Assembly (NCBI RefSeq): GCF_029889805.1
Contig: NZ_JARANT010000017.1
Location: forward strand, 1 to 38,089
Length of the DNA stretch: 38,089 nt
Reading direction: 5' to 3'
Source: Halorubrum sp. Boch-26
Lineage (GTDB): Archaea > Halobacteriota > Halobacteria > Halobacteriales > Haloferacaceae
The notes under the pieces were generated by a model that saw only the letters and a list, made by a program, of their open reading frames with translations, was not told the DNA's origin and searched no databases. The translations under genes were made by a program, and so were the position numbers. Positions 1 to 19,751 of this stretch are shown here, in pieces (positions within the stretch are counted from its first letter, which is position 1; each line of letters starts with the position of its first letter).

Positions 1-200
1 GACTCCCTGCTGGCAAAAACAACAGGTGGGAGTCACCAACGCCGAGGATAGGAGTACCGGCGGTTTGGCACCGCCAGTCAGCCACCGACCACGATGACAG
101 GGTTAGACGGGTTCCCGCAAAGTGGCGGAGTCATGGTTGTGAACCTGAAACTCCCACCGCTCGGGATTCCTCCGCGTTCACGCGGAGGAGGATGTCAATA
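1..200 (+). mobile_element. IS200/IS605 (IS1341-type) element, 3' end remnant
   Basis: This looks like the last ~200 bp of a TnpB-encoding element whose body lies left of the window. One frame begins LPAGKNNR, resembling the SPAGKNNR segment found near the C-terminus of many haloarchaeal TnpB proteins. About 160 bp later comes a perfect GC hairpin followed by GATGTCAA, which is how right ends of these elements usually look. The ~50-codon distance from this segment to the hairpin fits an intact TnpB tail, but the exact reading frame and stop are unclear, so the gene may be frameshifted. The identification rests on remembered family features, not on a search. Confidence 0.5.
168..189 (+). repeat. 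Terminal hairpin of the IS1341-type element
   Basis: Perfect inverted repeat: arms TCCTCCGCG and CGCGGAGGA around the loop TTCA, followed by GGATGTCAA. In the IS200/IS605 family such subterminal hairpins are recognised by the TnpA transposase and also form the 3' end of the TnpB-associated RNA. No TnpA gene is in this window. Confidence 0.6.
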
Positions 201-16188: not shown

Positions 16189-17376
16189 TCACGGCCCGGC
16201 GGTCGAGACGATCTTCACCACGTCGCCCTCGGTCAGTTCGTGACCCTCGCCGATCCGGCGCGAGGAGCGCGCGTCGACCGCGTGGAGGTACCCCTCGCCG
16301 ATGTCGGTGTGGACCGCGTACGCCAGCTCCGGCGGCGTCGCTCCCGACGGGAGCAGAAAGGCGTCCGGGAGGACGTTCCCAGTGCCGTCGGTCCACTTCG
16401 ATGCGTCCTGCACCGGGTAGACGGTGATCCGATCGAGCAGGTCGTAGACGGCGGCGTTCAGCGCGGTCTGGACTCCGGTTCCGCCGTGTTCGCCCATCAC
16501 GCCGCGGATCGCGTCGAGACCCTTCCGCTGGCCGTCCGAGACCTCGCCGACGATCTCGAAGTCGTCGTCGCCGGGGTCGTAGTCGACGACGCCGGCCTCA
16601 GCCGCCCGGCGCAGGGCGAGCTCGCCGTCGGCCGTCGCCGGGATCACGGGCTTGTCCGTTCCCTCGCGAATTCGGTCGAGCGCGCCGTCGGGCGCGGCGT
16701 CGACCTTGTTGGCGACGACGACGATCGGCTTCGTGCGGCGCCGGATGGCCCGCGCGAGCGCCTCGCGGTCGTCGTCGCTCCACGCCTTCGGGTCGTCGGG
16801 ATACTCCAGCCCGCGGAGGACCGCCGTCACGTCGTACTCGGTCGCGCCGAACCCGGTTAGCAGGTCCGTGACCGACTCCTCCAAGTCGAAGTCGGGCGAG
16901 CGCGACTTGCGCTCGACGCCCTCCCAGTTACCCTCGACGATCCCCGCGAGCCACAGGTCCATCTCCTCCTCGACGAAGTCCACGTCGTCGAGCGGGTCGT
17001 GCGAGCCGACCTCGACCGGCTCGCCCTCGGCGTTCGTCGCCCCCGAGGCGTCGACGACGTTACAGACGACGTCCGCGTTCGTCAGCTCGTCAAGGAACTG
17101 GTTACCGAGGCCCTTCCCCTCGTGTGCGCCCGGCACGAGCCCGGCTACGTCGAGGAGCTCGACGGGGACGTACCGCTTCCCGCCGCGACAGTTCTCCGAC
17201 CCGCACCGCTCCTCGCGGTCGAGACAGGGGCACTCGGTGCGGACGTGCGTGACCCCTCGGTTCGCGTCGATCGTCGTGAACGGGTAGTTCGCGACGTCGA
17301 CGTCGGCCATCGTCGCGGCCGTGTAGAACGTGGACTTCCCGGCGTTCGGCTTCCCCGCCAACGCGACCGTGATCAT
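16189..17376 (-). CDS. YchF/Obg-family GTPase with TGS domain
   Basis: A 395-residue translation-factor-class P-loop NTPase. G1 is GKPNAGKS (8-15), G3 DVAGLVPGAHEGKGLG (76-91) and G4 VVVANKVD. The C-terminal TGS domain ends HELTEGDVVKI. Bacterial and eukaryotic YchF/Ola1 have NxxE at G4 and prefer ATP; here NKVD is kept, which suggests GTP. An insertion between G2 and G3 carries C49, C51, C58 and C63, a likely zinc site; I recall this for archaeal members. The role is probably ribosome-associated. ATG 17376 is supported by TTTTCG near 17398-17404. Confidence 0.9.
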   Translation of the reverse strand: MITVALAGKPNAGKSTFYTAATMADVDVANYPFTTIDANRGVTHVRTECPCLDREERCGSENCRGGKRYVPVELLDVAGLVPGAHEGKGLGNQFLDELTNADVVCNVVDASGATNAEGEPVEVGSHDPLDDVDFVEEEMDLWLAGIVEGNWEGVERKSRSPDFDLEESVTDLLTGFGATEYDVTAVLRGLEYPDDPKAWSDDDREALARAIRRRTKPIVVVANKVDAAPDGALDRIREGTDKPVIPATADGELALRRAAEAGVVDYDPGDDDFEIVGEVSDGQRKGLDAIRGVMGEHGGTGVQTALNAAVYDLLDRITVYPVQDASKWTDGTGNVLPDAFLLPSGATPPELAYAVHTDIGEGYLHAVDARSSRRIGEGHELTEGDVVKIVSTAGP

Positions 17377-17429: not shown

Positions 17430-18020
17430 CTACGGGAACTCGACGAGGGCGTCGTCGACGCCCCGAAGGCTCTCCGCGAGCCGCGAGTCGGATGGCACCG
17501 CTCCGAGGAACTCGGCGGAACCGAACTCGGCGCCGCCGTTGACCGAGACCATCCCCAAGTCCGCCGGGTCGCCGTCGAGTCCGATCAGGAACGCGACGGT
17601 CCGAACGGCGGGGACATCGTCGACGCGAGCCGCGACGTCGACGGAGCCGTACAGCGACCGGTGCGTGGCCACGTGGTGGACGCAGGTCGGCGTGGGCGCG
17701 AACAGCAGCAGGTAGCGCGCACCCGGCTCGGTGCGGCCCAGCTTCGGTCGGATCGCGTGGCGCTCGTCGGCGTGGAAGTACCGCTCCATGCGGCGGTACT
17801 GTCGCAGGACCTCGTTCGCGCCGGTCGCGCGGCGCACGGCGGCGTCGGCCTTCAGTTCGATCACGTGGTCGACGCGCTCGGGGGTCCGCAACCGGACGTA
17901 CGCGTCGACGACCCCGCGCCGCCCCTCCGCGTCGTACGGCTCTTCCAGCCGGATCTCCGGATCGTCGTGGACGGCCGCGTAGTGGTCGACGACGCGCGCC
18001 GCCAGCTCGTCCTCCCGCAT
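17430..18020 (-). CDS. PD-(D/E)XK nuclease-like protein of unknown function
   Basis: A 196-residue protein not matching a family I can name. Its N-terminal half has the arrangement of a PD-(D/E)XK nuclease core. VVDAYVRL gives D39, HVIELKAD gives E55-L-K57, and the following helix ANEVLRQYRRMERYF has Q74 and Y75, as in the helix after the active-site strand of many such nucleases. The rest (ARYLLLFAPTP, VRTVAFLIGLDG) alternates strands and helices. It could be a DNA repair/recombination nuclease or an inactive relative. ATG 18020 follows TTTATTCG at about 18046-18053. Convergent neighbours are absent; it is a single gene. Confidence 0.7.
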   Translation of the reverse strand: MREDELAARVVDHYAAVHDDPEIRLEEPYDAEGRRGVVDAYVRLRTPERVDHVIELKADAAVRRATGANEVLRQYRRMERYFHADERHAIRPKLGRTEPGARYLLLFAPTPTCVHHVATHRSLYGSVDVAARVDDVPAVRTVAFLIGLDGDPADLGMVSVNGGAEFGSAEFLGAVPSDSRLAESLRGVDDALVEFP

Positions 18021-18168
18021 ACGTTCGGTTCAGGGGGCCGCCGGCGAATAAATCCGCCGACGGCGCGGTCGCGAGCGATCGCCAGAGGGCCTACTTAACC
18101 CCTGCGGCCGTTCCGATGATTCGGTGTGTATCAAGAGGTTTGTAAGGCTCGAAGGCGTATCTGAACTG

Positions 18169-18702
18169 ATGTCTGAAAAGCTGAGTAGACGGCGGTACGT
18201 CGTCGGAACCGGATCCGCGCTCGCCCTCGGAACGATCGCCGGCTGTTCCGGCGGCGGAGGGGACGGGTCAGACGGTTCCGGTGGCTCGGATGGCTCTGAC
18301 GGCGGCTCGGACGGCGCGGGAGAAGCCCTCGACGACGTCCCGAGCGAAATCGACGAGTACCTCGCGGACGCCCGTATGTACGACGGCACTATCGCCGACT
18401 ACACCGGACAGGACGAGGTCACGGTTTCTGTCGGAGCTGGCGACGTCGGCTTCGCGTTCGATCCCGCGGCGATCCGGATCGACTCCAGTACGACCGTCGT
18501 CTGGGAGTGGACCGGCGAGGGCGGCGCCCACAACGTCGCCTCCGTAGAGGGGTCGGAGTCCGACTTCAACAGCGGCGACGCGGTCGGCGAAGAGGGAGAG
18601 ACCTTCGAACAGTCGTTCGACAACACCGGCATCCAGCTCTACCAGTGTACGCCCCACCAAGCGAACGGGATGCTCGGCGCCATCGAAGTCGTCGAGAGCT
18701 AA
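18169..18702 (+). CDS. Halocyanin (type 1 copper lipoprotein)
   Basis: A 177-residue exported blue copper protein. The N-terminus is a Tat lipoprotein signal: SRRRYVVGTG, a hydrophobic stretch, then IAGC with the lipid-bearing C26. A Gly/Ser/Asp linker of ~25 residues follows, and then a plastocyanin-like domain with all four copper ligands: H121 (GGAHNV), C160, H163 and M168 (YQCTPHQANGM). It should sit on the outer face of the membrane and carry single electrons, possibly to the cytochrome oxidase encoded 4-7 kb away; that link is inferred. ATG 18169 was chosen over upstream starts because TTTGTAAG at 18139-18146 is placed correctly. Confidence 0.93.
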   Translation: MSEKLSRRRYVVGTGSALALGTIAGCSGGGGDGSDGSGGSDGSDGGSDGAGEALDDVPSEIDEYLADARMYDGTIADYTGQDEVTVSVGAGDVGFAFDPAAIRIDSSTTVVWEWTGEGGAHNVASVEGSESDFNSGDAVGEEGETFEQSFDNTGIQLYQCTPHQANGMLGAIEVVES

Positions 18703-18790: not shown

Positions 18791-19309
18791 TCAGGGCAGG
18801 AACGACCACCGCACGTCGACGATGCGGTCGTGCTCGCTCGTCACGGTCGGCCGCGCGAGGTGGTCGTTCGCGTTGACGCCGGCGTTCGCCAGCCGGATCA
18901 GGGCGTCTTCCAGCGACCGATCGGAGCGCTCGACCGACGCGTCGCGCTCGTACGGGGCGTCGATCGGCTCTTCGGGCGCGTTCGCGATGTTTACCTCGCC
19001 CGCGAGATCGGCGCCGATGGCGCGCGGCGGCTGGTGAAACCGCCAGTCGCCGACCGCGAGGAACAGCCAGACGTCGCCGTCGATGGCGTGGTACTCCCCG
19101 GTAACGTGTGCGTCCTCGTGAGCGACGATCCGCGACAGAACCGCCGTTTTCGTTCGGTAGAGGGCGTCCTTGCGTGCGGAGCGGACGTTGCTCTCGGTGA
19201 CGTCGCCGCGGTCGTAGGCGGCGGTCGCCTCGTCGGCGAACTGCTTTGCGACCTTGTTGACGACGTACAGCGATTCGAGCAGGTCGTCGGTCGGTTCGAG
19301 CGGGTCCAC
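18791..19309 (-). CDS. Conserved hypothetical soluble protein
   Basis: A 172-residue protein I do not recognise. The N-terminal half is helical (ESLYVVNKVAKQFADEATAAY, ARKDALYRTKTAVLSRI) and the middle appears beta-rich (GEYHAIDGDVWLFLAVGDWRFH). Three His and a DAH motif are present but no known active site. The start is weakly supported: it would be GTG 19309, with no TATA box at the expected distance. It converges on the halocyanin gene and is divergent from the oxidase subunit IV gene. Confidence 0.65.
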   Translation of the reverse strand: MDPLEPTDDLLESLYVVNKVAKQFADEATAAYDRGDVTESNVRSARKDALYRTKTAVLSRIVAHEDAHVTGEYHAIDGDVWLFLAVGDWRFHQPPRAIGADLAGEVNIANAPEEPIDAPYERDASVERSDRSLEDALIRLANAGVNANDHLARPTVTSEHDRIVDVRWSFLP

Positions 19310-19475: not shown

Positions 19476-19751
19476 ATGTCGGACGATTCGCTCAAACTGT
19501 ACACAGCGATATACGTCGCGCTCCTGGTCGCCGCGACGCTGAACTTCGTTCTCTTCGAGGCCACGTTCCTCGACTTCACGTACGCCCAAGCGCTCGGCGG
19601 GACGCTGGTGATCGCGACGGTCAAGACGCTGCTCATCGTCGCCTACTTCCAGCACCTCCGGTGGGAGAACCGCTCGCTGACCTACGTGATGGCGCTCGCG
19701 CTCGCGCTCACCATGCTGTTGATGGCCGCGGCGACGTACTCCATCTCCTAA
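19476..19751 (+). CDS. Heme-copper oxidase subunit IV
   Basis: A 91-residue membrane protein with three transmembrane helices. The pattern KLYTAIYVALLVAATLNF, then VIATVKTLLIVAYFQHLRWE, then a last helix, is that of prokaryotic cytochrome c oxidase subunit IV (COX4_pro/CyoD). In this family the K-x(n)-F-F/M-H element in helix 2 is conserved. It stabilises the CuB site and assembly of the oxidase encoded downstream on the opposite strand. ATG 19476 follows TCTTTAAGC (19443-19451), a good TATA box for a leaderless message. Confidence 0.88.
   Translation: MSDDSLKLYTAIYVALLVAATLNFVLFEATFLDFTYAQALGGTLVIATVKTLLIVAYFQHLRWENRSLTYVMALALALTMLLMAAATYSIS

Follow-up and report, generated by a model that had tools for sequence, protein, structure and literature searches.

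Which function can be ascribed to a hypothetical protein that is encoded at a fixed place in nearly every Halorubrum genome and that none of the sequence libraries searched names? The question arose in a 38,089-nucleotide stretch of DNA from Halorubrum sp. Boch-26, hereafter the window, where the first-pass annotation had described an unassigned gene product with a PD-(D/E)XK-like core and had considered both a housekeeping nucleic-acid role and a degenerate nuclease. We hold it very probable that the window protein is an active nuclease of some kind. Our more specific reading, for which residue conservation and a predicted structure argue and to which we assign a probability of about 0.6, is that of a catalytically intact, metal-dependent PD-(D/E)XK DNA nuclease acting on replication or recombination intermediates.

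The open reading frame lies on the minus strand exactly where it had been annotated, begins with ATG, and comprises 196 codons and a stop codon. The gene and its immediate surroundings are as follows.

17430..18020, minus strand: gene for the 196-residue protein of predicted PD-(D/E)XK fold (stop codon at 17430-17432)
18047..18052, minus strand: TTTATT, which may be an archaeal TATA element and precedes the ATG by 26 bases
18124-18702, plus strand: halocyanin gene (TIGR03102, E 2e-45), upstream of the nuclease gene and divergent to it
16189-17376, minus strand: YchF-type GTPase gene, 53 bases downstream of the nuclease gene and on the same strand

The placement of the TTTATT element suggests that the gene may have its own promoter and a leaderless transcript. 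The first-pass annotation had found no mobile or defence genes beside it, and this agrees with our scans, in which Pfam and NCBIfam recognized no mobile or defence family among the five neighbours in the window, two of the five matching no family above the cut-off. The halocyanin gene adjoins the nuclease gene in all 76 Halorubrum-type loci examined (L001-L030, L036-L043, and L049-L086; some genomes are counted twice) and was not found near it in loci of other types. On the far side of the halocyanin gene, a 172-residue protein encoded at 18791-19309 (minus strand) is conserved in many Halorubrum loci and has no Pfam or NCBIfam match above the cut-off. A small open reading frame at 19476-19751 (plus strand), whose match to caa3 oxidase subunit IV stays below the cut-off, likewise belongs to a gene order repeated in many Halorubrum loci.

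AlphaFold2 modelled the window protein from 49 sequences with a pLDDT of 93.5 and a pTM of 0.90. The model consists of a helix (residues 3-17), three strands (22-31, 34-44, and 50-57), a second helix (68-81), and a further strand (101-107), followed by helices and three more strands. This is the core order of the PD-(D/E)XK superfamily as an excerpt of PMC1913061 describes it, and the alpha-beta-beta-beta-alpha-beta arrangement that the annotated fold implies is present in the predicted model. Within this core, D39 lies in the second strand, E55 and K57 close the third, and Q74 belongs to the helix that follows, which are the places of motifs II, III, and IV, respectively. A second model, of a distant relative from locus L109 (pLDDT 82.6), has the same core order; since the window protein is among the 14 rows of its alignment, the two models are not fully independent.

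The best structural matches of the window model are restriction-like folds, as the first-pass annotation had anticipated. In VIA-align, where a Z score under about 8 may reflect merely a common arrangement, XisH ranked at the top (2inb, Z 10.6 with 124 residues aligned at 3.0 A; 2okf, Z 10.5), followed by AF1548 (1y88, Z 9.1), NucS (2vld, 8.8), Cdn1 (8z4i, 8.4), EndoMS (5gke, 8.4), an entry titled Upx (9wuf, 8.3), and Card1 (6wxw, 8.3). The model of the L109 relative matched XisH (Z 9.7 and 9.4), NucS (8.4), and AF1548 (8.2), and the first five matches are common to both models in slightly changed order. Among the lower matches, the YqgP domain and acetyl-CoA carboxylase (Z 5.5-5.8) for the window model, and an ASFV RNA-polymerase chain (6.7) and acetyl-CoA carboxylase (up to 6.4) for the L109 relative, are not nucleases to our knowledge. 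Foldseek gave no match to the window model at E 0.001, the best being AF1548 (E 0.012, probability 0.99), Bax1 and NucS (0.97 each), and TnsA (0.35), and a search of viral models likewise yielded none with an E of 0.001 or lower.

Conservation was assessed on 170 open reading frame hits from 170 loci, reduced to 95 rows that differ over residues 20-130 and include the window protein. The candidate active-site residues and further conserved positions of the predicted core, with the number of rows out of 95 that keep them, are listed below; all are on the minus strand.

18012..18014, minus strand: E3, start of the first core helix, candidate acidic residue of motif I (93/95)
17943..17945, minus strand: E26, first core strand (94/95)
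17904..17906, minus strand: D39, second core strand (34-44), motif II (94/95)
17856..17858, minus strand: E55, third core strand (50-57), motif III (95/95)
17850..17852, minus strand: K57, third core strand (50-57), lysine of motif III (94/95)
17814..17822, minus strand: G67-A68-N69, family-specific loop leading up to and into the second core helix (95, 93, and 95 of 95)
17799..17801, minus strand: Q74, second core helix (68-81), motif IV (95/95)

The residues that had been singled out earlier, D39, E55-L56-K57, and Q74-Y75, are all found at these positions in the protein, and the conservation of D39, E55, and K57 in homologues supports their assignment. While Q74 is invariant, Y75 did not hold up as a strict residue, since the position is occupied by Y in 74 rows, F in 20, and V in one. 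Residues Y29, G36, F82, H116, and Y124, which the first-pass annotation had not mentioned any more than E3, E26, and G67-A68-N69, are each kept in 94 of the 95 rows. The place of motif I could be taken by E3, which opens the helix at 3-17, or by E26 in the first strand, and either could be a metal ligand. D39, E55, K57, and Q74 are present together in the window copy and in 93 of the 95 rows, so that a degenerate nuclease, as had been considered, is disfavoured for this copy. Even among the 15 rows whose identity to the window protein is below 45% across residues 1-130, 14 retain all four.

Two rows depart from this set of four residues. The sole row without D39 is a fragment in a metagenome-assembled genome of Haloferacaceae (L113:4932-5339), a shortened and apparently decaying copy. 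The sole row without K57 is a second copy in one genome (L152:5908-7017), where E-M-T replaces E-x-K and K replaces E3, and the other copy in that genome matches strongly (E 5.5e-92); judged by its residues, the L152 copy is a natural candidate for an inactive paralogue.

The bare motif is weak evidence, because D-x(8..24)-(D/E)xK, with spacings of our own choice, arose in 24% of shuffles of the window protein, and the same motif with a Q 10-25 residues later arose in 2.0%. Its significance comes from conservation across the 95 family sequences: the chance that four arbitrary residues would all fall within the 20 columns in which 93 or more of the 95 rows agree is 8e-5 when the kinship of the rows is ignored. 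Moreover, 42 core-clade sequences, compared by a Nei-Gojobori script in pairs with dS of 0.1-1 (758 of 861 pairs), gave a median dN/dS of 0.26 (range 0.05-0.62), indicating purifying selection.

The sequence libraries searched offered no name for the family. The window protein had no Pfam, NCBIfam, or PDB sequence match and a single PHROGs match at E 0.21. When 19 family members were scanned against Pfam, NAT_N was matched by three (best E 0.0058), VRR_NUC by one, and three other families at E 0.16 or above; a scan of nine members returned AAA_assoc_2, VRR_NUC, and ProRS-C_2, each in one of the nine. These matches were weak and scattered. We treated those to NAT_N as chance and took the hits of PDB profile searches as chance as well (two in one search, E 0.37 and 1.6, and one in another, E 0.19). 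VRR_NUC reached E 0.066 in one member and was not matched by the window protein. PADLOC applied to nine members returned one weak match, to BrxC (E 0.015). We found no paper on the window protein in the open-access literature searched, including through three accession or locus names of Haloferax orthologues.

Profile-profile comparison, by which the first-pass annotation had proposed to check the fold, was performed locally with hhalign against alignments of NucS, Hjc, and Mrr (11, 13, and 11 rows), with three other haloarchaeal families as negatives. The outcome was weakly positive with NucS and at background with the other two. The distant clade aligned to NucS at E 0.006 and the pooled family at E 0.015, the latter alignment placing G36, D39, and E55-x-K57 in register with the NucS motif; the core clade alone gave E 0.10, which is at the background level, as were the matches of the family to Hjc or Mrr (E 0.08-0.55). 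Against the three negative families, our three profiles scored E 0.09-0.9 (best 0.09). The probabilities were 0.6-6% with NucS and below 1% with Hjc and Mrr. Between known relatives, NucS-Mrr reached 0.013, Hjc-Mrr 0.004, and NucS-Hjc 0.19, so the comparison is insensitive, because NucS and Hjc score at background against each other. Kinship with NucS thus has slight evidence on the side of sequence and better evidence on the side of the predicted structure.

Comparing the window protein with its nearest known systems, the XisH family (PF08814; 2inb, 2okf) is the best structural match of both models and shares the small single-domain size. However, identity in the structural alignments is 10-11% for the window protein and the distant relative, and the window protein has no PF08814 match at E up to 10, a search in which the HMMER filters drop most weak matches. 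A profile comparison with XisH was abandoned, as none was found in 294 phylum genomes or in one Trichormus plasmid and the controls were silent both times. NucS/EndoMS (PF01939; 2vld, 5gke) has a similar fold and carries the G-x-x-D ... E-x-K motif in register with the family. Nevertheless, its match is confined to the C-terminal part (residues 126-233 of the 2vld chain), whereas the core of the window protein starts at residue 2-3 without an N-terminal domain, and PF01939 is not matched at E up to 10. AF1548, an archaeal protein of unknown function and the best Foldseek hit, is 7% identical in the VIA alignment. Hjc (PF01870) is an archaeal Holliday-junction resolvase of the same superfamily with motifs I-IV, as an excerpt of PMC1913061 states; the family aligns to it near background (E 0.08-0.2), and the window protein has no PF01870 match at E up to 10. 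The idea that the window protein is NucS or Hjc under another name was rejected, because the same genome has separate genes for NucS (55.4 bits) and Hjc (114 bits). Cdn1, Card1, and Can2 contain a nuclease domain of similar fold (Z 6.7-8.4), but the match is confined to the C-terminal part of those larger chains, whereas the window protein is a single small domain. In one relative, the family domain forms the C-terminal part of a 385-residue open reading frame with an N-terminal part of about 180 residues (L114:4398-5552). The superfamily is well known; the haloarchaeal family is new and unnamed in the libraries searched.

The gene was found in 55 of 116 relatives searched, and in 51 of 52 Halorubrum genomes, the window's own included; in one of the 51 it is just a fragment where a contig ends. 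Scans of one genome per species yielded 66 loci, distributed over Halorubrum, Haloferax, Halobellus, Halogeometricum, Haloparvum, Halospeciosus, a few metagenome-assembled genomes, and a distant set comprising Natronosalvus, Saliphagus, Natribaculum, Halorientalis, and a second copy in Halorubrum salinum. A tree of 58 rows places the core clade apart from this distant set, with long branches and modest basal support. In six Haloferax records (megaplasmids) and in Halobellus limi, the copy is plasmid-borne, on records of 285-505 kb, four of the seven having been inspected. Across the order, 67 of 392 genomes match, a patchy distribution outside Halorubrum. A phylum-wide sample of 392 genomes searched with a 9-row profile gave 18 genomes, all within the window's order, and no member outside the haloarchaea; 50,697 phage records gave no match with either clade. 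The housekeeping role considered in the first-pass annotation is therefore upheld in part: near-universal presence in Halorubrum speaks for it, whereas the patchy occurrence elsewhere and the presence of some distant relatives in viral contigs and integrase-bearing elements speak against it.

These mobile relatives take several forms. The copy at L115 belongs to a viral contig of 33.5 kb that also encodes a terminase (PHROG E 1.5e-29), a portal protein (4.5e-61), and a primase-like protein (5e-62), and the copy at L172 belongs to a 56 kb viral contig in which an ERCC4-type nuclease gene lies 71 bases upstream on the same strand. At L109, a tyrosine integrase is nearby together with a phage-type primase-like protein 49% identical to that of L115; L035 has an integrase nearby, and L034 has a weakly primase-like protein. 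Halorubrum salinum (L035/L111) carries its second, distant copy near the integrase gene and the genus-typical copy as well. On the megaplasmid of L045, the gene stands between transposase genes and near a Cdc6 gene and a PLD protein, and at L110 it stands between two open reading frames resembling the IS6-type transposase beside L045. The distant clade is only partly mobile, because several copies have what look like ordinary chromosomal genes around them, surE for example (L112/L147/L148, L150, L151, L153, and L154).

We compared neighbours across 21 loci (20 of other types and L069) with heuristic gene calling, reporting families present in at least three loci. Such families are confined to Haloferax or to a Halobellus-like group, and the one open reading frame that bridges two Haloferax loci and one Halobellus locus does not adjoin the nuclease gene. 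No adjacent gene common to several genera, which would point to a pathway, was found in this comparison, and the idea of an operon partner was dropped. At L153 and L154, which come from two genomes of a single genus, the nuclease copy has a divergent HerA-like ATPase gene beside it; this arrangement, not seen elsewhere, is suggestive in that it recalls HerA-NurA.

A mechanism can be proposed by placing the conserved residues in the predicted core. D39 and E55, probably with E3 or E26, would hold Mg2+ (or Mn2+), and K57 would position the attacking water. Q74, together with the conserved TGAN loop, may give the active site its shape and keep the nucleic acid in place, and each active site would thus cut one phosphodiester bond. 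The substrate would be branched, flapped, or broken DNA arising from replication or recombination. We infer the DNA substrate, and with it a role in replication, recombination, or repair, from the nearest folds and from the neighbours of the viral relatives. The copy in the window's lineage would be the chromosomal, settled counterpart of a nuclease that haloarchaeal viruses and integrated plasmids carry. Only tentatively do we extend this to a history in which early Haloferacaceae acquired a recombination nuclease from a virus or plasmid and a single genus fixed it, so that it might now serve there as an extra structure-specific nuclease beside NucS and Hjc, with the TGAN loop setting its substrate.

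Other readings of an active enzyme have to be weighed against this one. Defence effectors are found among the structural matches, namely Cdn1, Card1, Can2, NucC, and Hachiman for the window model and Cap4 and Avs3 for the L109 relative, and the plasmid relative at L045 adjoins a PLD-family protein with an RE_NgoFVII match, all of which would suit a stand-alone nuclease that cuts the DNA or RNA of invading mobile elements. However, the five window neighbours scanned include no defence family recognized by Pfam or NCBIfam, PADLOC on nine family members returned nothing beyond the single BrxC match, and the gene is near-universal at a fixed place in Halorubrum, whereas most defence genes are not near-universal at a fixed place in a genus; we regard a defence role as unlikely. 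An active nuclease that processes or degrades RNA instead of DNA seems a little less likely still. Restriction-like folds include RNA cutters and no conserved feature in the 95 rows proves a DNA substrate, yet genes for a primase or an ERCC4 nuclease stand close to some of the viral and integrated relatives, and NucS/EndoMS, among the nearest matches, is a DNA repair endonuclease according to its entry titles and the abstract of PMC8228993.

The remaining readings deny catalysis or the fold itself. A restriction-like protein that has lost catalysis and serves in DNA binding or as a structural component would have precedent, since dead members exist in the PD-(D/E)XK superfamily, and the L152 copy lacking both K57 and E3 shows that such a loss may have occurred within the family. 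The window copy and 93 of the 95 rows nevertheless retain the full set of four residues, and the median dN/dS of 0.26 also argues against it, making a dead protein improbable here. Least credible, and in our judgement highly improbable, is the reading that the fold is unrelated and the motif resembles that of the superfamily by chance: while 2% of shuffles yield the motif with its Q and the Pfam, NCBIfam, and PDB sequence searches gave no hit, the predicted topology, the structural matches of two models, and the conservation of exactly these residues all speak against coincidence. The preferred reading remains a metal-dependent DNA nuclease of the PD-(D/E)XK superfamily.

Overall, the finding is sound, useful for annotation, and of a familiar kind. 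A hypothetical protein carried by almost every Halorubrum genome becomes an enzyme that can be tested, and a sequence family is delineated for which no clear model emerged from scans with Pfam, NCBIfam, PHROGs, and PADLOC; should the protein be merely one more nuclease, the value would lie in annotation. Haloarchaea are models for archaeal repair and recombination, and one more conserved nuclease, with relatives in viruses, could account for redundancy among the known resolvases, or the family could mark an arms race between viruses and their hosts.
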